A stretch of DNA of 64,000 nucleotides, from positions 124,001 to 188,000 of the forward strand of contig NW_026570354.1 of NCBI RefSeq assembly GCF_019649055.1, given 5' to 3'. The stretch is from Paramacrobiotus metropolitanus (lineage: Eukaryota > Tardigrada > Eutardigrada > Parachela > Macrobiotidae). The notes beneath the pieces are model-generated. The model saw only the letters and a program-made list of their open reading frames with translations. It made no database searches and was not told the DNA's origin. The position numbers and the translations under genes were made by a program. Shown one piece after another: positions 1,025 to 29,529 of the stretch; positions within the stretch are counted from its first letter, which is position 1, and every line of letters starts with the position of its first letter.

Positions 1025-4000
1025 ATTCCTGCTATCATCTCTTGTACGGTTGAGACTGATCTCTTACACCACTGGTTGCCGATTTCTAACCTAACTTGGC
1101 TTTACATCTGGACTTTGATGTATTTTCCGTCAACACCTTCTCACCGACAATATCCTGGATGAGTTGATGTATCTCATCCTTCTCCAGCCGCACGTGTACA
1201 GTCTGTACGGCCACCGTGTTCCGGCCGCTGATATGGACTCACTGCCAGCCGGAAGCCGTCCCACTGGCCCAGTCACTTACCGGCAAACCATTTCCTGCTA
1301 CAAGACCAAAAGGGAATACTACTTGTACCGTTGTACGGTTGTACCATACTTCAGGCGCGCTGTACTCGTTTGGGCCAGAGCGACCTTGAGAATCGAGCCC
1401 GAAAACCGCAGAGTCGCTGCACATTACTGCTGCTGCTTTCAACTGCTGTGGAAAGGCTTTGAAATCCTTTAGGAATAAGTCAGCTGATTCAGTCAGCGTG
1501 TAATATAAATGCAAAGTGCTGACGTCATAAATTTGATCGAATTTCTAGCGATTTCCGCAGGGAATCACTCGTTGGCTTCGCCCGACAAATGGGTTATTGA
1601 CACAAGTATAATTCATAAGGTAACATAAGAAAACTGCTGGAAATAAATTTCTTGAAACAAAACAGAAATAATTCCTAATTTTTCGCGGCAAAAGAAAACA
1701 CAGAGTTTACAGCAAAGGTAAACGTTCGCACCAGGCGCAAAGCTGATGCTCGTTTTGATGCGGGAACTGGCAGAAATCCTATAAAAAAATCATAAATTAT
1801 TAAGAATTCCTTGTAAAGCATTTCGTAATGCATGGTTTAAATTAATAAACGAGTACTGTACTGCTACCCTGCACTTGTCCAGACTTTTGTACGGTTTGAG
1901 CCTACTGCACTGTAGGCGAGTGAGAGCTAAAGCCGCTCACGTTCAGTCAGCTGCCTGCTCTCTGCACGCAGTTGCAGGCCGTGTATGTGAATCGTGAATG
2001 GGCTGATACAACGTACGTGCGCCTGCACTGCAAAATAAATGGACAAGTGCAGGGTAGCAGTACAGTACATCTTCTCAGTGACATACATATGTGTCACGTA
2101 TTGTAGAACATGGGAAACTCAATGCCTGTACAGATATCTGTACAGGAAATATAGATATTTCGTGGAGAAATTAAAGCTGCATTTATTGAAGTGCAATAAA
2201 CTATAAAGAGCAAAATAATTCTCGTGCGGAACGCGAAGCAGGCGGTCGGTTCTGCTGCCGAAATCATTAGAAATTCCGCCAAAAACAGTAATTTTGCCGG
2301 TATTTTGCACAAGTGCGGAACATTTCTGACCAATACACCACTTTACTTGTCTAAAGTGCCCACTTTTAATATACGTATTCAGGGACCGGATCCACGTTCG
2401 TTGTAAACAAATTTTTCCATGGTGTGAACAGTTGACAACCCGAATCATGATAACGGGTTGCACGCATGCGTATGTCAGTTAACTTCCAGTCACTCTGAAG
2501 GAATGCTAGCGCAGCGCCGCAAATCGGTCTATAATCGCCGGCGGAAAGGGCGTATCAGCTGAGCGACACCCAGCCGCTGCCGACTGGCGAGCGGCGATAG
2601 GGCAATGTCATCAAGGCATGGGTGTGGCCAGCTCACATGCCGTCTGCAGCGCCACCGGAAGTATGTGACGCAGATGGCGCATCCGGATCGGAGCGGAGAA
2701 CCGGGGCTGTATCGTTTATGGTTGAACTGTAATGTTTCTATCGATTTCTTTCTTGCCCTGACTACTATAATTATATACTCGCATTATACCTAATGCAATT
2801 TATAAGTATAAAATTTTATCGGAAACTTTTATTAGAGTTCGACATGTGACTATATCTACAATTTGTAGACGGCTGCCGATCACTTCGGCCGCGATTCACT
2901 TCGTCTTACACTCATTTCGGCCGTCTTCTACGGGATGCTGGTATTTGCTTTTAACGCGAATCGCAAACAATCGAAGGTTTCTGCAAAGGTCTTATGTGGC
3001 GCCACGCTTCCGGTCGCTCTTGTCGTCGCCAAATGTGTTGCAAATCTATCGAACCAATTTCATGTCTCGGTATATAATAAACACAAGAAAAGAGAGTACG
3101 TATAACAAAACGCAAGTACTCGGAGCCCGCGGAGGGGTGAACCGAGCCTTGTCCACATTCAGCATCCCGCTATAATTATTCTGCTGCAGAAACTGCTGGA
3201 AATTTTGTAAAACTAATTAAACTCTTTCCATTTTGCGTGTTAAGGCGCCGGTTAAAATAACACACCACTAACTGCCAATTTTCGCGCGAAGCCCGAAGCC
3301 GACGCACATTTTTACTGCCAAAATTGCTAGAAATTCACAAAATGAATAGTAAATTATTGCAAAGTCCTTGCGCAGCTTTTTTTCGAGCAGTGTTTATTGA
3401 TAAATGAGTAAATCATGTAAATGCATTCGGTAGCAAAAGTGTGTATCGTGGAATATACTGTAATAAAGTTTATACCTATACGCCGAGTATTTATTTTAAA
3501 TTATTAAAGTGGAATACAGGGCTTTTTACGCGCGGAGCGCGGAGCGGACAGTCTGTTTACCGCGAAAGGCGCTAAAAATTGACCAAAAAAGAGTCATTCC
3601 TTGGGTTTTTTGCAAGATCGGCTAATATTTCTATGCGATAGTCCTCCCTTTACTTTTTTGAAGTAGCCTTAAATTTTTAGCCGTCGGCAGATTCACCACT
3701 AACGGCCGCCCACCGCGCTAACCACATTAAACGATCCCAGGGACGCAATGGCAGCCATTACCGCTACAATACCTCCCACTCAGTCACAATTATGAGGAAA
3801 ATAACAGATCGGTCGTACGGTTCGGTACTGTGCAAGTGTCTGAATTGAATACGATTCCCACATGATTATAACTTGATGCACAGTGCACCTGACCGAGGTG
3901 CTTCAGGGCTTTAACCAACTCACGTTAATAATTATTTTTCCGGTACGGACCGATTGTCCGGCGGCCGTCAGTGGTGCCGGTCACAGTAAAGGATGTGGCA

Positions 4001-4589
4001 GAACGTAGAAACATAGCCTCCGGTGGGCGCCGTGGCTCTATCGGGAGACCCATGGAGATAAAAGTAGATTAGCTGCGTCGTTCTACTGCACGCGCCTTCA
4101 GGTCTTCACTGCGCAGGCGCACTGATACTCAGCTTCCCATCGGGAACAGCACAGCCAGGTTACGAGTTCCAGCACTGTCACGTATTGTCAGGAAATCATT
4201 CAAACGGCTGACATTAGGGACAATTCTTCTTCACAATGTGTTCTTCCAGTTGCGTGGAAAGTGGGAAAACCGAGTCCACTGCGCGGATCACATGCATCAC
4301 GATGCAGGCATGCGCTATGCAGCAGTCACTGCAGCGAAGCAATTCAACAGTGCAGGGCGACTGCAGACTGCAGCGCCACCGGAAATGACGAAAACGACCA
4401 ATGCGCAGCTGCATTTTCTTATTTTCCCACCGATTGTACGAGTAGCAGTAAGTAACAGTCCTAAGAAAGACGGATTACGTAGAAAGAGCGGCTGTTTTTC
4501 GTTCGCACAAATACAGAAATATTATGTACCACAAATAATCATCGCACTCTATTACTTCAACAGCTTTAACAGGGCGTCGGGAATAATTA

Positions 4590-5735
4590 ATGGCCATGTC
4601 TACGCGCGAGAACACTCCCGCGCTATGAGTTTTGGCTACGCGCCAGAGCTTTTCCCGTCCAAAAAAATTACGAACAAAAAGTTTAAGCGACAAAAATCCG
4701 CGCAAGAATATCTCGCGGAATACTTTTGACCACTGGAAATTATACGGTTCCTTCGATTCAGTTGTCGAACACACGCCCACATGTGTCAAATTATATTTTT
4801 TCATGAGATGGGGAAGTTAAGAAAAAATCCGAAAGCCATTCTACGCGTGTAGTATGCGAGCAATATTCACAGCGCAAATGATCTGTATCCGCTAGGCAGA
4901 TGCAACCGCCGGGGTATTTCCACCGTATCTGCTGCCGTTACTGTGCAATTGTGACCTTTGACCGTGGTTTTCGTTGGACAATTACGGCCCTGCGATCTGG
5001 AAGGGGTGCCAATGTGCCGGTTTCGATGAAGGTTAAAACCAGTGGCGCAGTTCGTCCTCCCGGGCGTATTTGGCGCTTTGAACCTGCTTGCCAAACAATT
5101 GCAACAGGACAGGTCATAGGCAAAGGACAACGAGCATATTAGGCAGTTATTTTCTCCGTGTAGTTGTCCGTAGACCGGGACGTACTCGATGCCGGATGGT
5201 CAAACTGGAAGTGTAACTGCAGTTCCAGCTAGTCTGTGGGGATTTGTCCCATTGAACAGTAGATCCGCGCAAGACCAGGGATGCCGCAGTTAAACAGCGC
5301 GCAAACGTAGTTGTTGACGCCGGTGAACATGGGCTGTACAGTGGTTCGTCATGCATCCGCATGTGGAAACACGGCCTTGCGAAGAACTGGTCGTTATATA
5401 TCCTGGCACAGAGCCAACTCTGCAGGAAGTTCTAGCCCGCCTTTCTGGGGAAATGCATTGCGCAACAGATAAACTCACTGCGTTAAGCGCTCTCATAACC
5501 TCCGCGTACGATTCACATCTATTTCCCACTTTAAGTTGTGATGCCATAACGGCTAAGAGTTGTGAAAACTCGAATTATCAGAAATGTGAAACGCCGATAC
5601 GGTTAGATTTTGTGTTTCGTTCAATAAAAGGTGACCTTTCCGTAATTATTACTTGCCATATCGTAATAAATACACAGATTGAAACTTTTTGTTAGTAATT
5701 TTTTTGGGCGGGGAAAAACTCTCGCGCGTGGCCAT
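4590..5735. mobile_element. TIR-bounded non-autonomous element, copy 1
   Basis: The left end reads ATGGCCA, a short insert, then CGCGCGAGA. The reverse complement of the right end reads ATGGCCACGCGCGAGAG. Further in, both ends carry a TTTTTCCC-type motif, a run of A, then TTAC(G/T)AACAAAAAGTTT, so the terminal inverted repeat is roughly 60 bases. A related copy lies at about 60110-61860 in the same orientation. The right arm of the inverted duplication lacks it at the matching place, so it is an insertion. No transposase is visible. On the minus strand around 5150-5460, coding-like text resembling about 60560-60870 is broken by stops. The superfamily is undetermined. Confidence 0.65.
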
Positions 5736-6577
5736 TTCGATAATATAATTATACTGTACAGATGCGTTGGCGAAATTGCTGGAGCTGCGGCCAGTGATCA
5801 TCGAGGTGAACGCCACTGTTCGTTTGTCCAGCACCGCAGTGCGCCATAATTAAACATTTCCCTGTTTATGTCGGCCGTATAGTAATTGGTCTTCGGTGTG
5901 ATTGTTATCGAATACTACCATCAGCAATTGTTCTCCCTGATTTGTTCCAGGTATCATTCTTCTCACCGATCGCAGGTGTGTCTTGCGTCTATGACCTTTT
6001 GCCACCTACAATACTCGAAAATAGCGCAAGTCGATCGTCTTGGCACTTAGTCTGTAGAATGAATTACTTGTTTCGCATTCGAATTAAATGAGTGCATAGC
6101 CTCGAGGAATTCGATTCAGCTCATCTGACTGTTAACAGTCACTTAACACCCAAGACGGGCCGGGCCGTTCATTATGATTCGACGCCGAGTGAAGTGTGGA
6201 ACACGCACCTTCGCCATCATTTCAACGCCGCAGCTACGGTATTATTATTATCACACATTATCGAACCAACAGCAGCCAAACTCCACTGGGGAGACTTTTA
6301 AGGCTATTGGAATTTATTTTTGGTATTTTGAAAATGCATATTCTTCTTTAAGACCATTACAGCGCAGACGTATAGCTCTCGTCTTTCCATTTGTATCTAC
6401 AGGGAAAAATTGAAAAGGAATACAAGATCACAAAGCCCCGTGCAGCGGGCGCCGCGTTTCAACCCAACCGAGCAGTCATTAAAAAGCAACAGAAAGTATA
6501 AAGTAAACTGAAAACAATAATCAACCCAACCAACGCAGCCGATCCATTCCGCACGCACCGCCCGCCAACTGTCCCTC

Positions 6578-6925
6578 CTATTCCGGCGTCGAGGTGTCCT
6601 CGCTTCTCGGGCTCGGCTGCGCTCCTTCGCTGCCCAAACGTCGCCGCAACCTATACAGAAAAAACCACAATAATTAGGAAAATATAATTAAAAGAACCAA
6701 ATTAATTAACCGGGGAGCATCTCCAGTTTGGCGCGCCAGTCAATCTTCTGTTCACACCCAACAGAAGAAAAACTTCAGTTAAATTAAATGCACTGCGAGC
6801 TCAAGTAAAATGGCGTACGTCAAGTCGGGCCGGGGCCAGGATGGAGCTGGACGATGCAAGTCAGATGGGCGACGCCGCTTTTCAGCTTCTGCATCTGCTC
6901 CGCGTGCGACTCTGCAAACAGCCCG
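6578..6925 (-). pseudogene. Broken copy of the 3' end of the Asx-like gene
   Basis: The minus strand of this stretch matches three pieces of the gene at 20794-25027: the exon at 24278-24366 (about 6910-6825), the start of the exon at 24434 (about 6766-6725), and the last exon with its stop codon (6650-6578). The rest of exon 6 and the exon at 24657-24836, which form most of the DEUBAD domain, are missing. The intron before the last exon is joined directly to the stump of exon 6. Codons in the first exon have drifted, for example in the segment matching the IVDLTSSNS motif. The 3' flank at 6440-6570 also matches 25030-25190, so this was a DNA-level copy and not a retrocopy. Confidence 0.8.
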
Positions 6926-7705
6926 AACACTTTCGCCTGTCTTTATTTTTTTGCAACTTTTATTCAGCTTATATTCATAATTATTTGACAGTGATCATGA
7001 CCTCCAACAAAAATTAAATTACACAGCTAAAACACTTCATATTCATATTACATATGTAAGAATTATACACGTTGACGTGCCTGAAATCAACACATGTTCT
7101 CGCTGCAAACTTTGACAGTTACAACGAGTGGTTTAGTACAGGTGATGCCATTTGAAGTGCCCATTTTGTCGCCGGTGCCTGTCAGGATCTAAAGATGACG
7201 AGCTTCGACGTTCGTGAAGTGGTGGGGAGGGTGACGCGACAGCCAGCGTGTGCTGCCGGAGGAGAAGGCAACGTGACGCGGCCGTCGGCCGTCGACGCCA
7301 TGGTCCACATCAGCAGCGTTGCGCCTCCTCATTCGTGCCTCTGTCGCTGCCTCTGACTGAGGAACGGATGACCTTTCGGCGACAATCTTGTGTTGGGACT
7401 GGCAAAGCCCGGCTGGCAAAAATCGCAGACGTGTACTAGTGTACTGATTCATACTGTTTTCTTGTGTCAGCAGATTGTCTTCAGCAAAATTTCCCTTACG
7501 GAATTTCGTTGACAAAATTTCGTTTACAAAATTGCGTTTCTGTAGCAACTGGTCGCGGAAAGCCAGATGCGGCTGCCATGAAAGATGTTGCACGGCAACA
7601 CAATGCTCGATGTCCCGGAAACGCGTGCCACGTGCTGGGCTTGGATGGCAGATGATTAATTGTTTATCGTTCATTTTCTGCGTACAAGGACGAAATGCGG
7701 CTTCC

Positions 7706-9299
7706 ATGGTCAATGATCAGTACTTCTATGGCAGACTGCAGTGTGTAGCCGTGTTGCTGGTCACCTGTTGGCTGCTGTCTCTGACTGGCTGCCCATCGGC
7801 CGCCTGCCCGACGCATACGGCGGTACCGAAGGCCGGCCGCAACGCCAACGCCACGCACCCCTACAGCATCGCCACCTGTTAGTGCATCCCATGAGGCATT
7901 ACCCCAATGTTTTCATAGTGCGACACAGGGCATCGTAGGCTGCATAGGCATCTTACCGTAAGAACCGTTACTGAATACACACTACTCGCAATCATCTGTG
8001 CCAGGATTTCGGCCCGTCGCCTTCTTAACGCATATCATTTCAGACTCATCCAATTTAACTGCTTCGCCATAACTGCAGCAGCATCCTCACAGTACGGGGA
8101 GTGTTGACCAACTGCTGACCTTCTATCATTTTCCTTTGCTAAGCCCAGTGGGGCGTGGCCACTCAGGAGGCTATCACCATGGAGGCGACATGGTTACATA
8201 GGCTGGCTGGTCTTCGTGCTAAATAAATTTTACGTTGACTGGTTTACCAGCCGGTGTCAAAACCCTGGCACAGATAAAATTAATGCACTAATGCCCAAAA
8301 AACTCAGGAGTACACATCCGTGCTGGGCTTATATATTGTAATTAACTATTATGCCTTAGCAAATTACTGTAACTGCTTCGTCTTGCAGTGGACCGCATCG
8401 TGGAGGAAGCAACACACGACCCGGACAGTGATGTGATTGCTCTGGCTTTTGACGGGCCCATCCCCACCGCCAATGGCAACCAAGCGCAACTGGTCCGTGT
8501 CGACTCCGGCGCCAGTGCCTCCGTCGTGTGCGCGGCGCACAGTCTCCCCTACACCTTTCCGCAGCACCTCCCCGAATTCTCCTGGACGCACCGGCAGCGG
8601 CCGCTGGCCTTCCTCAGCAACGGCCGCCTCGTCAACGTTCACCCCGGCACCTTCGACCTCGAGCATTCCGTGCAATCCCGCCCGGCGCCGGCATCCCCCT
8701 TCGCCGACGTCAGCGTGACCTTGACCTTTAGAAACGCCTCCTGGCAGGCCAGCGGCGACGTGACCTGCACCCAGCACTGCCTCGGGCCCTTGACCTTGCT
8801 GCCGGCGCTGCTGGAGCCCGCTGCCGCGCCCCTCTGCGCCAGCCACACCCAGCACTTCCGGCTGCTGGTCTTCCCCTCCGCCGGCGACCTCTTCCCGGTC
8901 CCCCTGGCCAACGTCAGCGTGCTTCGCGGGGCCGACGTCCAGATGAGCTGCGTGGCCAACGCCCGGGATGTCGCCCATACAGACACCCTGACCTTTGTGT
9001 GGTGCTTGAACGGCCGCGTGATTGCCACCCGCGGGGAGCACCCGTTGCGGGCGCTGGCCGGCGACGTCGTGAGCCGGCACGGCGGCTTCCCCTTGCACGG
9101 CATCTCCACGGCTCGTGAGTTCACGTTCGGCGTGGCGTACAACCGCACGGCGACGACGGTGAGCAGCACGCTGGTCGTCTACAGCGTGGACCTGCACACG
9201 TCGGCGCGCGTCGAGTGCTGGGTGCGGCCCGACGCCAGTGAGGAAGTGTGGCGCCGGCAGACCGCCTACCTCCATGTTCTCACCACTTTGGCCGCTTAA
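7706..9299 (+). CDS. Secreted protein with two Ig-like domains
   Basis: Two exons, 7706-7877 and 8389-9299, joined in phase 1 by a GTTAGT donor and a TCTTGCAG acceptor, give about 360 residues. The chosen ATG is followed within ten residues by a hydrophobic stretch (VAVLLVTCWLLSLTG), a likely signal peptide. A longer in-frame start at 7475 exists but would bury it. Exon 2 shows two C...W...C patterns typical of Ig folds. In the first, the Cys of VVCAAHS, the Trp of FSWTH and the Cys of VTCTQ can be picked out. In the second, they are MSCVAN, FVWCLNG and VECWV. Several N-glycosylation sequons fit an extracellular protein. No transmembrane segment or GPI signal is evident at the C-terminus, which ends LTTLAA. 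I do not recognise a specific family. It is the first gene inside the inverted-repeat arms. Confidence 0.75.
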
Positions 9300-10306
9300 T
9301 CGGCCGGCTGGATCTGGGTATGGCGTAGTCGGTTGTTAATTGATTTTGCCAGATGGCCAATGCCCATTTCGCTACTGTAATATTTCAGTAAAGATAATAT
9401 ATTAGCGGGTTGAAAAGGTAGCACGTCAATTCGCCGACCGGCAGCTTGCTTTTCTGCTAAATTGATGACCGACGTTCCGCCGAAACATATATTTTTTGTT
9501 GACCGGCAACTTGCTTTTCGGTTCGCTATGTTGGTTTTTGAGTTTTCTTAAATTCTTGTTATGTTCTTAGGTTTCCTGGTTTTCTCGAGCCAGCAAAATG
9601 TCGTTAGCAAGTTGTCGGTTAGCGAATTGTCGGTGTGCCGGTTGAATCACAGTCTACTGGCTGGTGCTTGTAATTTCGCGGATATCGACGAACGTTGTCT
9701 AAGTGTGGCTGCTGATAGTGTCGCGCACATTGTATGTTGAGTCTGCCTAACGACCTCAACCAAGCTGGCCAAGCAGGTACATAATGAACCGCCCGTCTTG
9801 GCAAAATGCTCACTACCGCGCGTGGGTGGCAGCTTGTGCACGAGTTTCTTGCCGCGCGCCGCCAGCATCAACTTGCCGTGGTTATTGACCAGAAACAATA
9901 CAGGTCTGATTTTTGGTATGCAGTTGCACTATCGGTCTTCATGCTCTTGAAGCTACAGACTACAGAAAGCGCGATGCATAAGTTGGTACAATTATTATGC
10001 TTAATGCGAACGACTTAGGGCTGATAATATTTACTGCTTTATTAATTAATCTCTAAACTCTGTACTGTGTGAACCGGCGCAAAATTCTCCGTTGCTTTAC
10101 CCGACCATCAAAAAATGATTAGACCGGCACGGTGCGTGAAAAATCACCAGAAAAATCACAAAAAAACACAAATAAAATTCTGCCAAACTGAACCGCAGAC
10201 AACAACCCGCTACCGATCCGCGAAAGATGAGAATAAATACTTAAAAAATCGCTGCGGAGTGCGGACGCGGCACAAACCAGAGAAAAGACAGAAGCCGCGG
10301 AGCCCT
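9300..10306. other. Intergenic, nothing assigned
   Basis: AT-rich spacer between the Ig-domain gene (+) and the 3' end of the F-box gene (-). Short open frames at 9619-9898 and 9806-10018 lie on opposite strands of the same DNA with no domain and no clear splice partners. The motif GACCGGCA(A/G)CTTGCTTTTC occurs twice near 9440 and 9500, a small direct repeat. Confidence 0.45.
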
Positions 10307-12756
10307 TCACCAGCGAGAGGTGCGCGTCTCCACGAGGGCCTTCAGCGGCGCCATGTAGTCCTCCTCCGCCTCCTGTGTGACAATTCCCTCCAGAGCCCCG
10401 TCGCAGCGCAATTCCCACTGCTGGGCGCCCTGCACCAGGCAGGCCAGCAGCAGCGGCGCCGCCCGCTCCACCTCCACGCCCTGCAGGGCCATTCCGCACT
10501 GCGCGTACAGCGGGGGACCGGCGTTGCGGCGCAGCGCGTGCTCCAGCGCACACACCGTCTGCAAGCAACACAACCTCAACACTCCCCTGTCCATGGTATA
10601 GGTTATTCGTATGATCTCTTCTGTTGTCGACTATGCTGAGAACGATCGATTTCATGAAACAGAACGAAGAAAATGGACCTACTTTGCCCAGAGTGTCCAG
10701 CAGCTGGCGCTGACGTTCGCCCAGTGGCTGCTGGTTGGCTCGCATTTCCGCCAGCCAGTCCGCGGCGCGCTGCTGGTCATCCGTCGCCGCTGTCCACGCC
10801 AGCCCGGCCTCCAGCAGATCCCACACCTGCCGCAACAACCCCGTGCTCGTCGGCTCGACACGCGCTACGGGAATGTTCACCGGCGTGTCCATGCGGCATT
10901 GCAAACGCTGCTCCTCGTATTCACAACTGTCGACGTCCAGCAGGTCGACGCGGCACTGCAACAGCACAACCTCCTTGCCCGGCAGTCGACGCAGCGCCTC
11001 CGCCAAATCCCCCACTGCGCAACCCATGCCCGAGCGCGTCTTGTGCGGACAGGCGTCGACGGACAGCCGGCACGTCAGCCGCGGGAGAAAGATGGTGGGC
11101 ACACGCTCACGCATTCCCGGGCAGTGCTTGGCCAAATCGCCCACTTTCAGCAGGCTGTCCAGATCACCGTTGCGGAGGACGACACGGTGGACGGAAGAGC
11201 GAAAGGCGTGGAGCAGGCTGGCCAGCAGGGCGTAGTCGTCGCGGCCGTTAACGACGAGGTCGGCGGCCAGCGGGGCCGACTGCAGGACGGCGTCAAAGAG
11301 GGCGCACACCGGGCGCAGACGCGTCCACTCCATCGCGTCCAGATGGGAGAAGACCGCGGAGAGCAACACCACCGGCAGCTGCTGCAGTCCCTCGCCAGCG
11401 GTGGCCTCCACGGCCGCGGGCACCTCCAGCATGCGGAGCATCCGCGGCAGCGCCAATGGCAGACGCAGCGCAGCCTCCCGGAAGCCCATCTGCAAACGAA
11501 GCAGTTACACTCTTTGTAGGGTAGTCAGCAAAAGCCAGGCCTCCCCACTCACCCACGAATTGTTCCCGTCTGTGCGTTCCATATACAGCCATGTGCCGCC
11601 CTCATCCAGCCGACGAAGAAACTCCAACGGCGGCCAACGCCGGTTCGGACGGTACAGGCAGCGCTCCATCAGGCAGCGCTGCGTCTCCTCCGCTGCAGCG
11701 GCACATTTCGCTGGCAGCTGCAGCCGGCTGAAAACGAACGTCTCCGGACCGACCAAGAGCTCAGCGTAATCCTCCCCGTAATAGCGCCGCAGCTCCTCTT
11801 CCCCGGGTGGTCGGCCGTGCGCTCCCGCCAGAACGCTACTCCCGCTGTCCCCGACGGCATCGCAGCCTGGGTAACGGATCCGAGCGGCCGGGACGACCTG
11901 CAAGGGCCCCGTTGCCCGGCCCGCGGCGTCGTACAGCCGCACTAACGCGGCGTCCATGCGACGGTAGCCCTCCTTCACCGTCACCACCAGCTCCGCCCCC
12001 AGCCAGGTCCAGGGTCCGCGGGGGTGGGCGCGCCACAGGACCTCCAGCTGCGGCGGCCCCCAGTGTTCCCGCAGATCCCAACTGTGCTGCATCCGGAAGA
12101 GGCGGCCGAATGGGACGAACTGACGGCGGCGATCCGGGCAGAGGAAGTCGATGAAGAGACCGCCGACGGCTGCATCCACGATCCGCCCGTACTGCAGCTG
12201 GCCGTCGTCGCTCCACACATCGACGCTATCGCAGCGATCGTCCAGGTTAGCAGCATGCTCCCGCGAGATGCGCTGCAGGGATGCCAGGCTGATGCGACGG
12301 CGCTGCAACCACAACGAGGCCAGTGAAATATGTAGACCGATTCACGTGTTTTAATGTCCTGTCAGTTGTTTCCCGATACAATACAGACACCAGTACTATT
12401 CCTACTTGCACCAGTACATGAAAACGAGCAGTTCACGGTGGAGAATCTAATCAAGCTATCGTTCCAGCAGAAACCAGCTGTGCCGAGTTCGCGGTCTGCG
12501 AGATACTGCACCTTAACTCTGCTGTCAGTCACAGAGTCACTAGACTCACTGCTGACGCCTACTCACTGTTAAGTTTAACCGGTGCATTACATGATCCTTA
12601 AAATACTCTGTACGCTCATGCACGCTAAACACAAACAGACAGGGAGTACACAAACACAGACGGAAGAAAGGGAAAGGAAACGCTGCCAATGAAAACGTGC
12701 TACGTGGAGTCTGCGGACTGCCCAGCACTGCGCTCACGTACCTTTCCCAAATCCAT
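10307..12756 (-). CDS. F-box protein with N-terminal Tudor-like module
   Basis: Four exons read on the minus strand: 12756-12742 (five codons, MDLGK), 12302-11553, 11489-10683 and 10558-10307, all joined in phase 0, total about 607 residues. The intron between exons 2 and 3 is only 63 bases with a good GTGAGT donor. Exon 2 carries a small beta-rich module around DSVDVWSDDGQLQYGRIVD and GLFIDFLCPDRRRQFVPFGR, similar in style to Tudor- or agenet-like domains. Exon 3 holds an F-box (LPVVLLSAVFSHLDAMEW, then LRPVCALFDAVL), the SKP1-binding motif of SCF ubiquitin ligases. The rest is conserved-looking but unassigned. By family knowledge it would act as a substrate adaptor; the substrate is unknown. 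The tiny first exon is the least certain part; the other joins are strong. Confidence 0.75.
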
Positions 12757-12798
12757 TTCCAAACGAGCAAGAAAAAAAGCAAGATCAGAACACCAAAC

Positions 12799-12837
12799 TG
12801 CGCTTAAACTGTTTGGTGACCAAACAGTTTAAGCGCA
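12799..12837. repeat. 39 bp perfect palindrome with one-base centre
   Basis: Two 19-base arms (TGCGCTTAAACTGTTTGGT and its exact reverse complement) flank a single G. It lies just upstream of the F-box gene's first coding exon. No other copy was seen in the window. Confidence 0.9.
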
Positions 12838-17972: not shown

Positions 17973-18217
17973 AACATCCGCGTCTGCGAACTCTTCTTGC
18001 CGGAGAAAATTGTTGTTAAATTTGTGTAGAAACTAGAAACTGATCGCGCAACGGGAGTCTCATCGAATGTTGTTAATGTTTTTTTTATTCCTCTAACAAA
18101 AGTATTCCGACTTGTACATTTGATCGTGGATGACTGTGAAATTATTACTCGAATAGCCATTCAACCAGACGAATTAATCTCCAAGAAAAAGAAAAATAGC
18201 GTCGCGGAGAAAAGCAA

Positions 18218-18223
18218 AATAAA
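18218..18223 (+). terminator. Candidate poly(A) signal, Shisa-like gene
   Basis: AATAAA about 245 bases after the Shisa-like stop codon. The NIFK-like gene converges from the other side, so the two 3' UTRs probably abut or overlap. Confidence 0.4.
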
Positions 18224-18253
18224 TAAACAAAAAATTGCGGATAATTATTCTTA

Positions 18254-18259
18254 TTTATT
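18254..18259 (-). terminator. Candidate poly(A) signal, NIFK-like gene
   Basis: TTTATT on the plus strand reads AATAAA on the minus strand, about 70 bases past the NIFK-like stop codon. Confidence 0.4.
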
Positions 18260-18329
18260 GGCTGACTGTTTTTTTGACGACGAAAGCTCGGGTGCAAGCT
18301 AAACTAGCGCTTCCGGAGAACGAAGAGGT

Positions 18330-19729
18330 TTATGGACTGTCGACGTCTTTTTCGGGGTGGGTATGGTCGCGGCCCCGGTGGCGGTTGGGCGTGAAGGAGA
18401 GGCCGCGGTGGCGCTTCTTGTGGCTGCGTTTGGCGGTGCTGGAACGGGACGGGCTGCGCGTGGAGGAAGGGCGCTTGCCGCCGGAGCGCGAGGACTTCTT
18501 CAGCGGGGAGCGGTGGCTGGAGGTCTTGTGGCGGGGCAGGGGCTCCGCGTCCTGGGGGGTCTTGCTGAAGACGCCGGGCGGGACTTGTTCCGCCGCCAGA
18601 TAGGAGCCTGTATGCGGGAGAAAGCGAGTTACAGTAAAATGAATTTAACTGCACACCACCGCTTCAAGATGCATAGCTCTTAGCGCAAACGAGCGATTTT
18701 CTTGAAAGTAACCTTTATTTCTTCGGAAAACATTTTCCTATCTCATAGAAATTACGTTTCACGGAAATCCCTACGATAAAGGTTTCAAATGAAAAAAATT
18801 CAGAAACTTCCGGCGCCGGACGCAGTTGCAACCGCCCGCAGCGGCAGCGTAACACCAATTCCATTTGGACAGTTTGTGAAATTCCAGTTTTGCTACTTTC
18901 GTTTCCGTAGTTTCTCTGCACTACTTAATTAAAAAATTTGAATTAAAAAATGAAGAATAAAGTGCAGAAATCATTTTAAGTTGCAAATGCGTCGTTTGGA
19001 AAGAGTCTCACGAGAAACCAAGCGATCTGCTTTCAGGACGTGAATGACAAATCAAAGCTGGAAAATTTACTAATAATTACAAAAATGCAGTAATTAAGCG
19101 AAACTAAGGGCAATTAAATAGTTACATTTGAAGAGCTGGTTGTACACCGGCAGACCAGCCACGTCCAGGGCGGCGCGCTGCGCGTCCTCGGCGCGGGTGA
19201 ACTGGATGTAGGCCACTTTGTGGCGGCGGTGCTCGCGCTGCTCTTGCCCTCCGAGCGGTCGCGGTGGCGACGACTCTTCTCCTGCAACCATCCGACGGTG
19301 TTTCCTCAAACATTATTCTTCGGACAACATAACTTTAGTGATTAAATACCTTTTTGTGCAGACCGGAACTGTTGAGGAGACGGACGCGCTGGATGCGGCC
19401 GTACTTGGCGAAGAAGCGGCTCAGCTGGCTCTCGCTGAACCCGTGCGGAATGCGCTGCAGCTGCACCACCCCGGGGATGCTGCACGCCGCCTCCATCGCC
19501 TGTGCAGGGAAAAGAATAAGCAAACTTTTAAAACTGTATGATTCTAAGCTGAAGAGAGTGAAGGACGGACCATCTTCTGGCGCAGACGGATGTAGTCGTG
19601 GAAGTGCTGCGGGTCCGATGCGCGGATGAAGGGCAGGGTGAGGGGGTTGGTCGCCGCCGCGCCAGGGCCGCTGGCCAGCGCCGCCGCCGCCTCGTCGCGG
19701 CACGACGACGAGCTGGAGCTCAGCGACAT
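18330..19729 (-). CDS. NIFK-like nucleolar RRM protein
   Basis: Minus-strand exons 19729-19571, 19499-19350, 19273-19126 and 18607-18330 join in phases 0, 0 and 1. The RRM starts at PGVVQLQRIPHGFSESQLS (RNP2-like) and runs through FFAKYGRIQRVRLL, then VAYIQFTRAEDAQRAA (RNP1-like) and NQLFKCSYLAAEQVP. This order, with PGVV before and a Cys-x-hydrophobic segment after the RRM, resembles MKI67 FHA-interacting nucleolar phosphoprotein (NIFK) and yeast Nop15, which work in 60S ribosomal subunit assembly. The C-terminus is a Ser/Arg/Lys-rich tail of about 80 residues, as expected for a nucleolar protein. Two oddities: the first donor is GTCCGT, and the in-phase acceptor of exon 3 is eight bases inside a better-looking GCAG site whose use would break the frame. 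An ATG at 19775 opens an acidic alternative N-terminus that is out of frame with the RRM. Confidence 0.75.
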
Positions 19730-19775
19730 CTCCGGAGGAGACGGACTCCACCTCCGCGTCCGATTCCGTCGCCAT

Positions 19776-20793
19776 TTCACACAGAGTGACAGAGGTACAG
19801 TTAGATTAATTCAAGGTGCAGCAAGTCCCTGATCAACAGCAGCAGCGAGGGAACAAGAACGTCGCAGTCAGCAATACGGCGACCCAGATGCGAATCACAC
19901 AGGCAGATGATAGATCAATCAGGTTGATGTTAGCTGTCGTCAATCAGCACTGATTGTGAGCAGGATGCACTGGGATAAAATCATCAAAGCCTCAAAGGAT
20001 AATGGATCAACGAAGCTAATCACCAGTCAGTTAAAAGCCTCGCTCTGCTGCCTACGCTCGCAGAGTGGATAGAACGCTATCCCGCGATTCCTGCCTGCAG
20101 GCACGCACACGCACCTGGCACTGCTTTCACTCTCAAGTCTGAACGCACACCAAGGCTGCGCTAACCTGTCAACTTCAATGGGAACAATCCAGTTTACTTA
20201 ACTCCCTCTCTCGTTAGTATGTACTAGTACAGGATCGCCAAGAACCGGAAAATCGTTCAAGTTGGTTAGAAAAGAATGAGAAGATGCTTAGAACCTGCCA
20301 AAAATCAAAATGGCTGCAAAAAAATAAAAAATTATAAATTTTTCACGAAATACCTGTGCTCGTAGCCTCGTACAGAAGACAGATGTGTGCTACACTGCGC
20401 GGTCAAGGTCGATGTATTCCACCTTCCATTTCGGCTGACACCACTGGAAATCCCATCATGATCAATGAGCTAGCCGTACGGTGAAATGTGCATCACAGCA
20501 CACTAAGCACTGGAATGGAAATCATTTGAATTTGGCATTGATTTCCGCTTCCGGTTGTCAACATTTCACTTTATTTTTATTTTTGGCGCTCTCTAATCGG
20601 GAATTCTGCACGTTGTAACTTGTTACTCGCTTGTGCATGATTTTCTGGAAATCTTTTTGAGCTTCTCAGTAACCAGACATTTATATTTATAATCTTTTTA
20701 TGGACTGCATGGAATTGCTCTTTTAATTTTGTTGTTGTGAATGCGGAGTGAGGAGCGTTGAGAGAAAGCGATTGGAATTTAGCGCGATGCCCG
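19776..20793. promoter_or_regulatory. Shared upstream region of divergent NIFK-like and Asx-like genes
   Basis: About 1 kb between two head-to-head starts. It probably holds both promoters and 5' UTRs. I see no clear TATA box or repeated operator-like motif and no coding exon. Confidence 0.4.
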
Positions 20794-23700
20794 ATGCGTC
20801 CGCACAGCGCCAGTGCCATGCAGCAGACCCGCAAAGCTCCCTTGATCGTCAAGATCCAGCGCAGCGCCCGCAGCCACACAGCCCTGCCCGCCTCTCTGCC
20901 CGCCGCGCCCCCTGCGCCGCGTTTCCTGGCCAGTCAGGCCGCAGGGCCCGAGCTGCACATGGCGGACCTGGAAGCGGGCCTGCCTGACGCGCTGCCACTG
21001 CACCGCGACGCAAGTAATGCTCCTCTGAAAAAAGCATCTTTTTCGTAGTTCTGCTCGTTGCTCACTGTGCCTTCTGTCTACAGGCTGCTAACCCGGGGAT
21101 CTCTCTTTTTATTAGTTCTTTATAGGGTCAGTGATCGTAATTTCGCTCTTCTTCCACTGCTTTCTCTCAACGTTCGCCAGATTATTTTTATGCAGTTAAT
21201 TTTAAATAATTAATAAAAAATTCATTTAATAATGAATGTTTTTAGTAAATTAATTAATAATTCGATTTAAATTAATTTTAAATTTATTATTAATTGAATT
21301 TGTGTTTGCAGCGATGAATGAGCAGTCGGCCCCCGGCACCCCCTCCGGCTACCAGTCCCCCGAGCTAGGCATGCCCCCCCACGGCCCCTACATCCACTAC
21401 TCCCCCGAATCCCCGCCCCCCACGCACCCCACCTCCCCCTCGCCCTCCGGCATGCGCGCCGCCTCCACCAGCCCCGTGGCCCCCGCCAAACGCCCCGCCG
21501 GCCACCCCTCCCCCCAGCGCCGCTCCCCGCGCGGCCGCCCCGCCTCCGCCCGCGACCTGGCCTTCGCCGAGGACATCCCGCTGAATCTGCGCCACGATCT
21601 GCCCTGCCCCAACGACCAGGAGCTCATTGAGTCGGTGCGCCAGGGCTTCGGCGCGGGGCCGGGGCGGGGTGGTCAATGAGCCTCCCGGGGTTCGGGGACT
21701 TCTTCGGGGCCTCCGCCGGGCGTCCCCGGGCGGGGATCGACTCGCTGCTCAGCCGCTACAACACCGCGCGCCTGGAGGTGCCCTTCGCGGGGGACGCCGG
21801 GGAGGCCCCCTTCGAGGCGGCCGTGGTCAGTCCCACCATCCTGGGCATCATGGACTTCCACGAGGCCGACCTGGCGCCGCTCTTCGGCCAGCCGGGACCC
21901 GCGCCGCCCCGCACCATTCGGCCGCGACAACACTTTATGGTAATTATTATCGTGGCTCCGAAAAATCCTCATAAAATTATAAAATTTATGAACAGTTTTA
22001 TTGATGGCTTATGCCTATAGTAAAATGGTTTAGAGTTCTATTTCAAAGGTAATAATTTAAAACGGTCATCGTTTTATTTTTGCCTTATTTGTAAAACCAA
22101 CGTCCTCTGAAAATTTAAATATGAAATAAAAACAAGCTTATTTTTGCCTTGAATAAAAGTCTGTTTTTATCTTTTAATAGAAAGTTACCGCAATAAAATG
22201 AAACACTTCAAAACCATTATTTTTTTTATATATAAATAATCCACTTCTACAGTTCTAAAGCAAAAAAATACTTCATCGGAATAATGCACCTCCAAGCCAT
22301 GGTTTTAAAATATTATACAATGGCTTTAAAATTTTGGTCGGTTTTATAAAGGGAAAATATTCCACTAAAATAAACCACTCCACAAGTGAATCAATAATTC
22401 AACAAAATACTACGGTATAAATCTGGGTAATTCGTTTCAGTTTTTGTCTATGGTCAAATAATGTTTTTTTTTGCAATTAAAAAAGAAAAAAATGCAGAAC
22501 AGATCGAGTGTCCGATTGGATGAAGTTTCGTGTATAATTTGTAGAACTCGCAGCGTGACCCGTCCACGTTAGTGGCGGAACGGCGGATGACAGCCGGCGG
22601 GGTCTTCCCCGACACCCTGGACACTACGGACATGCCCAGCCCGCTGCCGGTGCTCTCCAGCCAATCCGGGACCTCCTCCCCGTCCTCCAGCGGGTACGCC
22701 GACATCCCGCCGCCCCTCATCGTCCCGGCCAGCGCGCCCCCACCCCCTCCCGTATCCCAACCCATCGGCGACGAATCTCCTCGGCAATCGCTGCGGCTGC
22801 TCATCAAGCGGAAGGACGGCGAGCTGTCGGTCAGTCCGGGCAGCAGTCCCACCAAGGTGGCCTCCTGCAGTCCCGTCAAAGCGCCGGAGAAGACCGAGAC
22901 CATCAGTCAGGGTGTGACGACGACGCCGCCCAAGATCGGGGTCACGCGCCATCAGGGCTCGCCGAAAGGCACCGGCAGTGCCGGCTCGGTGAAGGTGGTG
23001 ACGAGCGGGACGGCGGAGATCCCGCTGGCGGACCCTCCGGCCGCGCGGACTCCGCTGCCGCCCACGAAAATGGTCAAAATGGAGAAGAGATTGGAGAAGG
23101 TACCGAAAATCCGTGAAATTTAATTTATAAAATTCAGCGTTAATTTTAGTACATTTAATAAAACATTACTACATGCAATAATAAGTTGTTTGATAATAAA
23201 TCTGCAATTAATTAGCCAATTTATTGGACAAATTTTATTAATAATTAAGTGAAATTACTAGTAGTTAAATCTGCAATGAATGAAATTTAGTGAAGTGTTT
23301 ATTATTATTTAAATTATTTTCGGACAAGTTATTGGTTAGTTGGTACGTTGAGTAATTTTGTGTGGGTTGCGAGGTAGGTGGTGAAACGGTTGAAGGAGAG
23401 CCAGTCGGCGGAGAAGGAGGAGAAGAGCAGGAAAGACAAGGCGCCGGTGAAGAGCCCGGCGCCGCAGACGCAGACGCCGTCGCCCGCGGCCGCGTCCAAA
23501 CCGGGCAGCAGCGGTCACAGCAGCCACTCGGCCAGCACCTCCCGCCCGCCCAACACGCCCACGCCGCCTCCGGACGGCAGGAACAAGAAGGTGGCGTCGC
23601 GCGGCAGGGGCCGCCCGCAGAAAATCACCTACACCGCGCCCACCGGTACGAGCCAGTCTTTCCTTTCGATTTAAAAATAGACACGTTTTTTAACTTTGGT

Positions 23701-25027
23701 AGACGAGAATTAACAGGTTATACTCAGGTGTCTCCTTTAAATATTCTATTATTTTAATGGGGTTGGCAATTGGCACTTACGGCAATTCAATTGCTTCATA
23801 TGCGCAAAAATGAGAACAAGGCATTTTCAGTTGTAATTTTTATGTGGTAATGAATACCGAACCATTGCTGTTTTTTTTTAAATTTTGTAATTGTGGAGGG
23901 AATACTGTGAAGGTCATTTATTAGTTTATACACCGCACCGACCGAAGGGTGCTTCACGTTGGGAAAGATTTCTGTTTTTTTCGTGAATATCCAAGCAGAT
24001 AAATCATTGTGTTTTTGGACAGAAATGGAAAATCAGTTTTCGTAAGTATTTTTTTAAAAAATGTATTTTTGGTCATGTACTTGGATAATTTTTGAATGTG
24101 AAAATAAGATTCAGTTTTTTTAATTGTAAATTTATAATTATTAGTAATTTAAAATCTGCGTTTTTTTAATTGTGTAATTTTCTTAGGGTGTCAGTGTTAT
24201 CAACAATAAATATGAAGATAAACCTAAGAAAACTGCATAAAATCAGTTGAAGCATAATGTGTTGTGGGTGCTTGCAGATTCGCAGGTGGAGCAGATGAAG
24301 AAGCTGAAAGCCGGCATCGTCGACCTGACATCCTCCAACTCCATCCTGGCCACGGCCCGACTTGACGTACGTTATTTTATTTGAGTTGGCAGTGCATTTT
24401 AATTGAAGTTGTGTGTATGTTGGGTGTGAACAGAAGATTGACTGGCGCGCCAAACTGGAGATGTTGCCGGCGGCCGTGCAGCACGAACTGGTCAGCATGC
24501 TGCCGGCCACGTGGCGCGGCGAGGACGCCGAGGGCCGGATGAGGTGGGCGGAACTGTCGGCAACGAGAAAATATAAAAAATAAATCGAAAAAAATTAAAT
24601 GGACATTTATTTAGAATTTTGTTGAATTTTGAGCGTGATTTACGGTGTTTGTTTAGTTTGTTGCCGGGTTTGTTGAGCAAGACGGACATGGAGTGGCGCA
24701 AGCAGGTGGAGGAGTACCAGAAGAACCTGCTGAGCGGCGAGTACGACACGGAGGTGCGCCGCAAGTACGTCGACCACGCCCTCGCCCAGATGGACCCCTG
24801 GAAGGTGCAGAACTTCGAGCCCCTCTACGGCGACCTGTCAGTATTGGCGGATCTACCGTTTTATTTCTTATTTGTTTCTCCGTAATAACTTTTTCCATGA
24901 TTGTGTGTATTTATTGTAATTTTCTGATAATTGTGGTTTGGATTTATTGTGTAGATTGCGGCAACGTTTGGGCAGCGAAGGAGCGCAGCCGAGTCCGAGG
25001 AGCGAGGACGCCTCGACGCCGGAATAG
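20794..25027 (+). CDS. Asx-like protein with AT-hook and DEUBAD/ASXH domain
   Basis: Exons 20794-21013, 21312-21939, 22554-23099, 23378-23645, 24278-24366, 24434-24543, 24657-24836 and 24955-25027 give about 704 residues. Exons 2-4 are Pro/Ser-rich, probably disordered. Exon 4 carries an AT-hook-like RGRGRPQK. Exons 5-8 hold the DEUBAD/ASXH domain: IVDLTSSNSILATARLD, KIDWRAKLEMLPAAVQHELV, WRKQVEEYQKNLLSGEYDTE and MDPWKVQNFEPLYGDL, matching the pattern in Asx/ASXL proteins, which activate the BAP1/Calypso H2A deubiquitinase. The protein ends 22 residues after the domain, with no PHD finger, and no HARE-HTH domain is visible at the N-terminus, so exons may be missing or this is a reduced paralogue. 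Exon 2 needs one extra base near 21655-21675 (a G-rich run) to stay in frame. The acceptor of exon 3 could equally be at 22545. Confidence 0.78.
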
Positions 25028-28000
25028 GGAACAAACAGGACGGACAGTTGGCGACTGCTTCGTGTCAGTGGATCGGTCTCCGTTGGTTGGTTGATTATTT
25101 TTATAATTTACAATTTTCTGTTGCTTCTTTTAATGACTGCTCGCGATCGGTTGGGTTTGTGCCCGACGGCCGCTGCATCGGGGCTTTGTGATCTTTTATT
25201 CCTTTTCAATTTCTCGCTGTACATACAAATGGAAGGACGAGTAATGTTACGTCTGCGCTGTAATGCTTGTAAAGAAGAATATGCATTTTCGAAACACCAA
25301 AAATAAATTCCAACAGCCTTAAAAGTCTCCCAAGTGCAGTTTGGCTGCTGTTGGTTCGATAATTTGTGATAATAATAATAATAATACCGTATCTGTAGCT
25401 GCGGCGTTGAAATGATGGCGTAGGTGTGTGTTCCACACTACCCTCGGCGTCGAATTATAATGAACGGCCCGGCCCGGCCCGTCTTGGGTGTGAGCAGTCA
25501 GACGGATGAATGGAATTCCTCGAGGCTGTGCACACATTTAATTTGAATACGAAACAGGTAATTTAATATAAAGACTGACTGAAAAGACGATCAATTGGCG
25601 ATATTACGCTGGCGGCTACGGGATGCCAAAAGTACCGAAGAAATTACATTTTGCAGATGAATAGCGCCACGATTAATAAACGGGAATAGCCCTTGCCGGG
25701 TTCACTAATAAATTCACGGTACGAGTACAGTATTGTAGGTGGCAAAAGGTCATAAACGCAAGCCACACAGTGCGATCGGTGAAAAGAGTGATTTCTAATG
25801 GAGAAATTATATTATTGTGCTGCTGAAACCTATACCGCGTTTCGCAGAAAGCGGATTAATGTTTGAGCGACAGTAGTTGTTTAATTGCTGTTAACAGCAC
25901 TGATATTAGCTACCGTCGTATACAGTATATATATATTTGTGGCAGTGCGATTAATTACTCTGTAGTTTTTCCGCCATCGATATTGGAAACGGTTCGACCT
26001 TATGGCTGCAATTTCTGTACCTGCTGCACCGTCTGCATCGGAGGCCCCGTACAATATACGTCGCCAAATGCTGTGTTGCGCTACACGGAGGTGACCTTTC
26101 TACCGCCTTCCAGTTAATTATTCCCGACGCCATGTTAGATCTGTTGAAGTAATAAAGTGTGCTGATTATTTGTGGTACTCGTATTGTTTCTGTTTTTATG
26201 CGAAGGAAAAGCAGTATACGTAATGGCGGTAATGCGCATGGGTCGTTGCCGTCATTTCCGGTGGCGCTGCAGTCTGCAGTCGCCCTGCTCTGCTGCATTG
26301 GTTCGCTGCAGTGACTGCTGCATAAGTGCACAGTGCATGCCTGCACTGTGATGCATCATGCATGTGATCCGCGCAGTGCACTCGGGCTTTCCGCTTTCCA
26401 CGCAACGGGAAGAACACTTTGTTCAAGAAGATTAATTTATCCCTAATGTCGGCCGTTTGAATGGTTTCCTGACACTACGGGACAGTGCTCGTGCTTGTAA
26501 CTGGCTGTGTACATGTTCTTCCCGATCGGAAGCTGGTAGCAGTGCGCAATGAAGACCTGAAGGCGCGTGCAGTAGAACGATACGTTGATCTCCAGGGTCT
26601 CCCGGTAGAGCCACGACACCCACCGGAGGCCATGTTTCTACGTTCTGCCACCTCCTTTACTGTGACCGGCACCACTTACGGCCGTCGGCCAATCGGTCCG
26701 TAACCGACAAATAAATATATCTTAACGTGAGTTGGTTAAAGCCGTGATCGACAGTGTGTTTTTTAACCGGCGCCTTAACACGCAAAATGGAAGGAGTTTC
26801 ATTACTTTTACAAAATTTCCAGCAGTTTCTGCAGCAGAATAATTCCCTGTCTTTTGGGTGTCCGGGTCCTCGGTGCCCCTCCCGCCCAAATCCCGAGCGA
26901 GTTAAATTCGCCTACGCCCTATGGGGCGGATTATTTTAGACCAAGGCATCCCCGAGACGGCAGATTTTTATCACCAAGTTTTTGTAGAATTTTCCTGGAG
27001 CATTCCTCTGGAATGGCTCCACTAGAACATTTTCTCCCGCACGAAATTAAATGGCCTCCAACGATCTGAGAGGATCTGTGTATTTATGCATGCACCACAT
27101 GTAGAATACTAGGGATAACGTAAAAATTTCCACGGTTAAAACCTGCGTAAGTTGACAAAGACACAGTCACATGATATGTCGAACTCTAAAAAAAGTTTCC
27201 GATACACTTTTATTCTTATGAAAATTAATGCATTTCATAATGCGAGCATACACAGTACTTGTATCTGTATAGTAGTCAGGACAAGAAAGAAATGCATAGA
27301 AACATTACAGCTAGTTCAACCATAAACGATACAGCCCCGGTTCTCCGTTCCGTTCCGGATGCGCCACCAGGACTTCGTCATACACTTCCGGTGGCGCTGC
27401 CGACGCCATTTGAGCTGGCCACGCCCCCGCCTTGATGACATTGTCCTATCGCCGCTCGCCAGTCGGCAGCGGTTGGGTGTCGCTCAGCGGATACGACCTT
27501 TCCGCCGGCGATTATAGACCGCTGCGCGGCGCTGCGCTGGCATTCCTTCAGAGTGACTGGAACGTTAATTGGCACACGCAGGCGTGGAACCCGTTATCGT
27601 GATGCGGGTTGTCAACTTTTTACAACATTGCAAAATTTTTTTACACCGAACGTGGATCCGTTCCTTGGATAGTTCTTAATTTTTGTTCTGATCTCCAATT
27701 TTTAGCGTCATAATGCTGATTCCTGTCTGACGTCGAGTTGAAGGTCGCCTTGTAATTATTGAAATTGGGCGGGACGGAATCGAGATTCGACGAGTGCACT
27801 ACTCTGGTTTGTGCTCCGTGTCGGTGGCTCCCAGTCGCTTGTTTGGCGTTATTCTTTAAATCTATGTTGTACTTTTATTACTTGTACTATTTGTTACTTT
27901 TTTATAGGATTTCTGCCAGTTCCCGCATTAAAAACGAGCATCAGCTTCGCGCCTGGTGCGAACGTTTACCTTTTCTGTAAACCCTGTGTTTTCTTTTGCC

Positions 28001-28590
28001 GCGAAAAATTAGGTATTACAGTATTTCTATTTTGTTTAATAAAATTTCTAACAATTTCCGCAGTTTTCTTAGGTTTCCTTTTGAATTATACTTCTACCAA
28101 GAGCCCATTTTTCGGGTGAAGCCAACTAGCGATTCACTGCAGAAATCGCTAGAAATTCCATCAAATTTATGACATCGGCACTTCGCATTACACGCTTACT
28201 GAATCAGCCTACTTATTCCTAAAAGAGTTCAAAGCATTTCCACTGCGCTGACTGCACCGGCCCGTTGCGCATCCGTCCTATCTGTATCTACCTAGTGGTA
28301 ACTGGTAAGAAGTTTTAATTCTACTTGACCTCAAAACTAAGAATTTACTGGCTTATAAAACATTTTGTGGCACAGTGTGTCAGCTTTAATTTGCAGCGGC
28401 GTACAAAATAACCGCGTGTACTCTGTGTGCGCACGGTCCGTGTCGCATACGACCACTGATCGATCGTAATTGCAAAGTACTGTACATCAAAGTCCAGATG
28501 TGAAGCGAGATAAGGTTGCAAATTCGAAACCAAGTGGTACAACAGATCAGTCTCAACCGTACAAGAGATGCTAGGAGGCGAGTGTAACGT
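24255..28590 (-). repeat. Right arm of the large inverted duplication
   Basis: Reverse-complement partner of 1025-6930. It starts in the intron before the DEUBAD exons of the Asx-like gene, contains the intact 3' end of that gene and continues through about 3.5 kb of non-coding DNA. The part beyond 25028 has scattered short open frames on both strands, none with a domain. The 27670-27890 stretch has no partner in the left arm. Confidence 0.85.
25302..25307 (+). terminator. Candidate poly(A) signal, Asx-like gene
   Basis: AATAAA about 275 bases downstream of the stop codon at 25027. The matching place in the inverted copy, near 6325, still resembles it. Confidence 0.35.
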
Positions 28591-29350: not shown

Positions 29351-29529
29351 ATGGCCGCATTTATTCCCCAACGCGCAGATGCTGCGGCCTGCAGTGTGCC
29401 GACTGCTCTCCCAGATCATGAGGGTCTCTTTCGGCTGCGCGTTCCCAGTGACGAAGTGCTGCATTACAACGTGCAGCCGGATGAGGTCTTCGTGGTTTCC
29501 GCAGCAACTGCACGGAGGAACCAGGGATG
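29351..29529 (+). CDS. Possible orphan first exon, unassigned
   Basis: An open frame starts at ATG 29351 (MAAFIPQRADAAACSVP) and runs about 60 codons to a CCT|GTAAGT donor, with GC-rich codon use like the real exons nearby. I found no partner exon downstream and recognise no domain. It may be a gene fragment. Confidence 0.25.

Follow-up and report, generated by a model that had tools for sequence, protein, structure and literature searches.

Genes and inverted arms of the locus

The window analyzed here comprises 64,000 nucleotides of contig C134 of the Paramacrobiotus metropolitanus assembly; coordinates below zero lie to its left and give the position on C134 minus 124,000. In the window, a gene-bearing spacer of 17.2 kb (6,986–24,204) separates two inverted arms. 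The right arm, first noted at 24,205–28,578 on the plus strand, carries the predicted 3′ end of an Asx gene together with downstream sequence, and the in-window part of the left arm (1,028–6,985, minus strand) is an inverted, decayed copy of it. Just inside the left arm stands an Ig-like gene (7,700–9,300, plus strand; start inferred from the open frame). The remainder of the spacer contains open frames with a weak F-box match below the Pfam cut-off (10,119–12,341, minus strand), open frames with a partial RRM match just below the cut-off (18,304–19,805, minus strand), and open frames without a Pfam match (21,254–22,020, plus strand). A domain match above the Pfam cut-off was obtained for Asx only, the Ig, F-box, and RRM matches falling below theirs. 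The initial annotation had placed five genes inside the arms, a count with which the open frames roughly agree; Asx, however, is not enclosed but straddles the border.

Two upstream Asx exons were recognized as open frames on the plus strand, at 22,568–23,104 and, with a GRGRP motif, at 23,378–23,647. Four further plus-strand exons are predicted within the right arm: exon a (24,278–24,366), in which the ASXH domain starts; exon b (24,434–24,543), also ASXH; exon c (24,657–24,840), encoding the ASXH core, with a donor at 24,837 or 24,841; and exon d (24,955–25,027), the last exon, with a stop at 25,025–25,027. When the predicted exons are joined across 24,205, a full ASXH domain is obtained (E=7.7e-16). 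A genome search returned this single ASXH match, and on the evidence of this domain the right-arm gene belongs to Asx/ASXL. The predicted reading frame ends shortly after ASXH, and neither HARE-HTH nor PHD_3 was matched genome-wide in an exon-by-exon search for which PHD_3 had no positive control and the HARE-HTH controls were bacterial. The inner arm boundary at 24,205 lies upstream of predicted exon a, in agreement with the earlier proposal that one breakpoint falls within an intron of an Asx-like gene. Because the predicted Asx gene crosses the inner edge of the right arm, this arm was taken as the probable source.

Self-comparison of the window connected 1,028–6,985 with 24,205–28,578 through nine collinear inverted blocks of 79–96% BLAST identity (E≤1e-18 in all nine, <1e-50 in five), and the inverted duplication first proposed from the letters was thereby recovered at the same arm positions. 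These in-window positions stand, but the full size of the arms does not, as the homology continues outward on both sides. In a comparison of the arms and flanks with the 40 kb left of the window, from which satellite left of −30,800 was excluded, the best 110 pairs contained four further collinear inverted blocks linking 28,672–30,570 to −5,651..−8,974. Their right-arm sides (28,672–29,495, 29,496–29,740, 29,868–29,952, and 30,449–30,570) lie in a previously missed extension of the right arm (28,579–30,830, plus strand), in which direct arm-to-arm matches reach 30,570. All thirteen inverted blocks are in collinear order. The left copy reaches at least −8,974, and the probable start of the entire left insert is near −10,917. 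The outermost block sits inside a dispersed element (about 30,035–30,830) with relatives on contigs C318, C84, and C235; it was counted as arm because identity between its two arm copies (85%) exceeds their identity to the C318 relative (75–76%), and its location makes the outer end of the duplication uncertain. Off-order matches joining 26,256–26,278 to 2,660–2,638, 29,224–29,258 to −6,180..−6,146, and both 34,776–34,864 and 35,102–35,189 to about −21,800 were not counted as blocks.

In genome-wide searches, each scoring its best 40 candidates, the arm blocks matched each other, and the remaining matches listed were to elements that interrupt the left arm, to short dispersed repeats (within the right arm, for example, 25,285–25,386 and 26,795–26,914), and to one new site on the same contig, C134:118,116–118,349, left of the window. 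The locus is an inverted segmental duplication, with collinear inverted homology at two sites, and is distinct from a dispersed repeat. As a background control, four arbitrarily chosen 50-kb stretches of other contigs were searched for inverted pairs separated by over 3 kb at E≤1e-10. On the top six chains of either orientation, no inverted pair was found in any of the four, and one contained a direct chain. Judged on these four stretches, the arms exceed the genome background of local inverted pairs. The neighborhood itself is duplication-rich, since the adjoining 50 kb of C134 (30–80 kb) hold 13 such inverted pairs, alongside 12 direct pairs. Within a listing of inverted pairs over 3 kb and direct pairs over 1 kb apart, one inverted pair of this region, 37.2–38.3 kb with 58.4–59.2 kb, has five genome matches, all on C134.

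Divergence of the arms and decay of the left copy

Across some 3,700 aligned columns, the gap-free identity of the arms is 88.6–89.8% depending on scoring, corresponding to about 11% divergence, and the aligned blocks contain 100 gaps. The upper value (89.8%, K2P 0.109) is slightly inflated by scoring; 88.6% was obtained under each of two tolerant schemes. For single blocks, gap-free identity lies between 84 and 97%. Inner and outer blocks are indistinguishable in their mismatches (271/2,550 versus 103/1,134; Fisher p=0.16), an equality that fits one event. The arms have therefore diverged, as had been noted at the outset, and have done so fairly evenly.

Sequence exchange between the arms would be expected to leave a different pattern in the case of NAHR-competent inverted repeats, whose long near-identical tract is absent here, the longest exact arm-to-arm match being 46 bp. 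Identity of at least 97% was reached in 26 of 3,585 hundred-column windows, and in none of the 3,485 windows of 200 columns or the 3,385 windows of 300 columns. The best 60-column window is unexceptional, its identity being equaled or beaten by the maximum in 1,958 of 2,000 permutations of the 3,684 aligned columns. The variance of window identity is slightly raised (reached by 35 of 2,000 permutations), and the lowest-identity windows listed are 24,208–24,287 and 25,542–25,603. Gene conversion between the arms was considered and set aside, as permutation revealed no exceptional high-identity window; the raised variance was not counted as evidence. Signs of recent conversion or flipping are lacking, a conclusion drawn from the fairly even divergence, the exact runs of at most 46 bp, and the absence of any 200-column window at 97% or above.

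Damage is concentrated on one side. The left arm is longer than the right mainly because of insertions, the largest of which, a 6.7 kb insert at −5,650..1,027, splits it. About 4 kb of this insert, as searched in its part to the left of the window, consists of multi-copy elements, one nested in another, and one of these elements is 98–99% identical to four other copies. A small repeat of 0.2 kb with 29-bp inverted ends (1,853–2,068) also occurs in the left arm only; its six best other copies are 98–100% identical, and this near-identity marks it as a recent insertion. A further multi-copy element of about 1.1 kb (4,597–5,734), with relatives on many contigs, is likewise confined to the left arm.

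The left copy of Asx has decayed. Its exon a differs in 13 of 91 columns (24,278–24,368, two intron bases included) and is frameshifted by four inserted bases. Exon b is reduced to its initial 30 bases, which show no differences, and exon c is absent. Exon d keeps its acceptor, frame, and stop, with 5 of 73 columns differing, and 57 of 535 columns differ in the 3′ flank. Selection on the left copy was considered, and these exon and flank differences gave no clear constraint. A search of 38 kb on the left gave no convincing match for the upstream exon at 22,568–23,104 (best E=0.056). A protein match of the exon at 23,378–23,647 (E=0.001) was rejected as a left-hand copy, being low-complexity, unmasked, and located inside the left Ig gene. 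The left copy thus looks like a dead, 5′-truncated, frameshifted fragment without most of ASXH. The two Asx copies have 51 21-mers in common, introns and flank included. That the left copy might control Asx through antisense or hairpin RNA would be speculation. No Rfam match was obtained in the window at the gathering threshold, and mitochondrial COX1 gave no match.

The probable insertion site and a permuted piece of the Asx intron

A relative of the spacer Ig-like gene lies at −12,044..−10,986 on the plus strand, so that two Ig-like genes bracket the left insert. If −10,917..6,985 is removed, the two genes, both on the plus strand, stand head to tail about 0.8 kb apart, with 1.5 kb between the matched stretches. 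A comparable pair occurs on contig C117, where two Ig-like genes, both on the minus strand, follow one another head to tail, their matched stretches lying 0.7 kb apart; another close pair, on C143, is convergent. The two genes of the locus are 72.9% identical to each other and 72.1 and 72.6% identical to a C117 copy, and their grouping as sisters is weakly supported (FastTree 0.753, IQ-TREE 51).

Some 70 bp beyond the left Ig gene, where the insert has its far end, a stretch at about −10,917..−10,520 is an inverted relative of the Asx intron at about 23,763–24,127 (plus strand). It was found as two collinear hits (E=3e-5 and 0.001), and its ends in the source vary with scoring from 23,873–24,109 to 23,514–24,127. 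None of 300 dinucleotide shuffles reached its score. In forced alignment it scored 75, compared with a best of −48 among 396 control pieces of the contig; the controls were unmatched for base composition, and the ends of the tested piece had been chosen from the hit. Its gap-free identity is 73–82%, compared with 88.6–89.8% for the arms, but this measure says little here, as up to 84% (145/172) is obtained when unrelated pieces are force-aligned, and the score comparison constitutes the test. At the level of sequence, the piece is homologous to the intron beyond chance. The adjacent intron inside the arm is also poorly conserved: at 24,208–24,271, 45 of 60 columns are identical, the lowest value found.

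The ends of the insert accordingly map to about 24,127 and 24,205 in the source, some 78 bp apart. The order of blocks in the copy is permuted relative to the source and the insert ends are adjacent there, an arrangement that rests on one short, more diverged piece. Because the insert ends are so close in the source and the internal order is permuted, the copied DNA may have been a circle opened within the Asx intron. A genome search with the intron matched only the intron itself and missed the known relative; given this insensitivity, a distant dispersed family or other copies are possible. A second small out-of-order match lies nearby (32,267–32,369 to 4,453–4,558; 74%, E=1e-9). The putative joint of the circle, at −10,520..−9,088, holds dispersed repeats, judged from the listed part of 356 matches, and showed no convincing match to the source flanks. 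The junction sequences of the insertion are too diverged to be read for microhomology or short indels.

Origin of the duplication

Taken from the anatomy of the locus, the predicted gene structure, the direction of copying, a single event, and a circle can be joined in one account. In this account, one event would have copied the 3′ end of Asx with its downstream flank, from about 23.8 kb to 30.6 kb or further, and the copy would have been inserted, inverted, about 17 kb away between pre-existing head-to-tail Ig-like genes. The copied segment would have passed through a circle opened inside the Asx intron, so that the copy would be a circular permutation, starting at source position 24,127, ending at 24,205, and having the far end of the source segment in its interior. 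It would have lacked the upstream Asx exons from birth. Later drift may then have shifted the frame of exon a, removed exon c and the greater part of exon b, and added the multi-copy insertions, leaving a copy that would now be inert and arms without sign of continued recombination. A single inverted insertion of an Asx-tail copy between the Ig-like genes, most likely by way of a circle and followed by decay, is somewhat favored as the explanation of the locus. The circle step is uncertain, and the more specific reading, a germline segmental duplication in which a DNA circle bearing the 3′ end of Asx would have been cut out and reinserted the other way round, is put forward tentatively, at slightly below an even chance.

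The same copy could have been inserted as a linear inverted segment, the piece at −10,917 being an older, separate copy of the intron or the outcome of a later rearrangement of the left arm. The piece is indeed more diverged than the arms, many later insertions lie within the insert, and another small out-of-order match occurs nearby. We nevertheless regard insertion without a circle as rather unlikely, since the boundary of the piece falls within about 78 bp of the inner boundary of the arm in the source, the piece lies right at the outer limit of the insert, about 70 bp past the Ig gene, and conservation is similarly low in the adjacent intron segment of the arm. An inversion with staggered breaks is less probable again. 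Here the spacer would have been inverted once, and fill-in of the overhang at one break would have placed the Asx tail at both breakpoints. Such breaks are described as a well-known origin of breakpoint duplications in the Drosophila literature (PMC4965816); they would yield one intact and one truncated gene copy, and the plain inverted order of the 13 blocks would suit them. The Ig-like genes would, however, have had to be far apart and in opposite orientation in the ancestor, and the intron piece at −10,917 would be left unexplained, although it may be a separate event. If both inversion breaks had been staggered, a match between the spacer edge and the right flank would be expected; the spacer gave nothing against the right side at E≤0.01 and nothing convincing at E≤1.

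The initial annotation also suggested that recombination between the arms could flip the enclosed cluster, so that both orientations of the spacer would segregate. Inverted arms of kilobase size, an intact left copy of exon d, and the 26 hundred-column windows at high identity are in keeping with this. A flip need not break Asx if the crossover fell outside exon c, as left exon d keeps its acceptor, frame, and stop. The suggestion finds no support in the arms themselves, which are about 11% diverged, contain 100 gaps, carry insertions on one side only, and have no identical tract beyond 46 bp and no exceptional high-identity window; a living switch is accordingly judged highly improbable, and inversion polymorphism, viewed from one assembly, is possible but unsupported. 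Nanopore assemblies can carry fold-back chimeras, and a single assembly was available, yet an assembly or haplotype artefact is given hardly any weight. The earlier argument that divergence speaks against a simple artefact is strengthened by the 100 gaps, the one-sided insertions, and the 17 kb spacer. Duplication of a haplotype was rejected on the single ASXH match found in the genome and on the lack, over 38 kb on the left side, of a convincing match of the upstream exons.

Local inverted duplications of some age can easily be mistaken for inversion breakpoints or for potential inversion switches. In this case, the arrangement of the pieces points to a third route, circle reinsertion, and the fairly uniform divergence of the arms speaks against a living switch. 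If circle reinsertion is correct, the locus would be a fossil trace of duplication through circular DNA in a tardigrade, an animal that is known to survive DNA breakage. Its interest lies in this circle signature and in the apparently short Asx.

A changed block order is a published signature of circular intermediates, according to PMC7450558 and PMC7188851. The examples given there include human segmental duplications (PMC7450558) and eccDNA-mediated duplications (PMC7188851), the latter source also citing the case of cattle color-sidedness (Durkin 2012). As in these cases, a segment with block order permuted relative to its source appears to have been inserted as one piece. The tardigrade locus differs in that the copy, inverted and old (about 11% diverged), lies 17 kb from its source along one stretch of chromosome, and in that the joint of the circle falls among repeats and cannot be read. 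A full-text literature search pairing tardigrades with inverted duplication listed a single paper, which concerns fly genomes.

The staggered-break inversions of Drosophila resemble the locus in that duplicated sequence flanks a gene-bearing segment, with one intact and one truncated copy, but the permuted intron piece and the head-to-tail Ig-like genes do not fit the pattern outlined in PMC4965816. Recurrent human inversions, among them FLNA-EMD (HsInv0389, PMC3961182), likewise involve kilobase-sized inverted repeats around genes. In that report, the refined breakpoints of inversions mediated by inverted repeats lie in high-identity stretches, with 99.9% identity over 782 bp in one example, whereas the present arms have exact runs of at most 46 bp and no sign of conversion.

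With respect to the gene itself, the complete ASXH (DEUBAD) domain is shared with the Asx/ASXL family, but the predicted frame ends soon after ASXH, and the unmatched HARE-HTH and PHD_3 are weak negatives. An Asx that ends just after the BAP1-partner domain recalls the ASXL forms with a truncated C terminus that have been discussed in relation to cancer (PMC5644247), although the N-terminal domain is kept in those forms.

Predicted length of the Asx gene

The Asx/ASXL family gene at window positions 22,568-25,027, whose exons were predicted from sequence, appears to end directly after its ASXH domain. A genome-wide search, which provides a weak negative, returned no match for either HARE-HTH or PHD_3. 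If the gene truly terminates after the ASXH domain, it would represent an unusually short Asx.

Further inverted repeats on the same contig

Two additional inverted pairs were identified on C134, the contig that carries the window. The first joins 37,244-38,296 with 58,419-59,208 and includes one 318-bp block at 94.7%; all five of its genome matches (5/5) are located on this contig. The second pairs 33,219-33,783 with 65,675-66,476, the latter lying beyond the right edge of the window. Additionally, a large palindrome of 689 bp occupies 34,639-35,327; aligned with its reverse complement, it shows a 90.6% match. A small inverted match (74%, E=1e-9) was also observed between 32,267-32,369, a site beyond the right arm, and 4,453-4,558, a piece of the left arm; this match is out of order.

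Repeated sequences and an expanded gene family

A direct repeat of 70-73% connects 15,260-15,908 in the spacer with -1,657 to -113 (negative coordinates lie left of the window), within an insertion in the left arm, and the latter side occupies the same place as a multi-copy element. Ig-like proteins constitute an expanded family genome-wide, with 64 matching stretches at E<=0.001 and clusters on contigs C117, C143, C116, and C227; some copies are broken, among them the one left of the insert, the inverted left copy. Farther left on the contig, at contig positions 84,001-92,870, a satellite array with a 163-bp unit comprises at least 54 copies with 95% matches and runs to the edge of the sequence examined. 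One copy of a dispersed repeat is located at -10,442 to -10,229, and its relatives form arrays on C60, C38, and C7, where the unit is spaced at approximately 93 bp.
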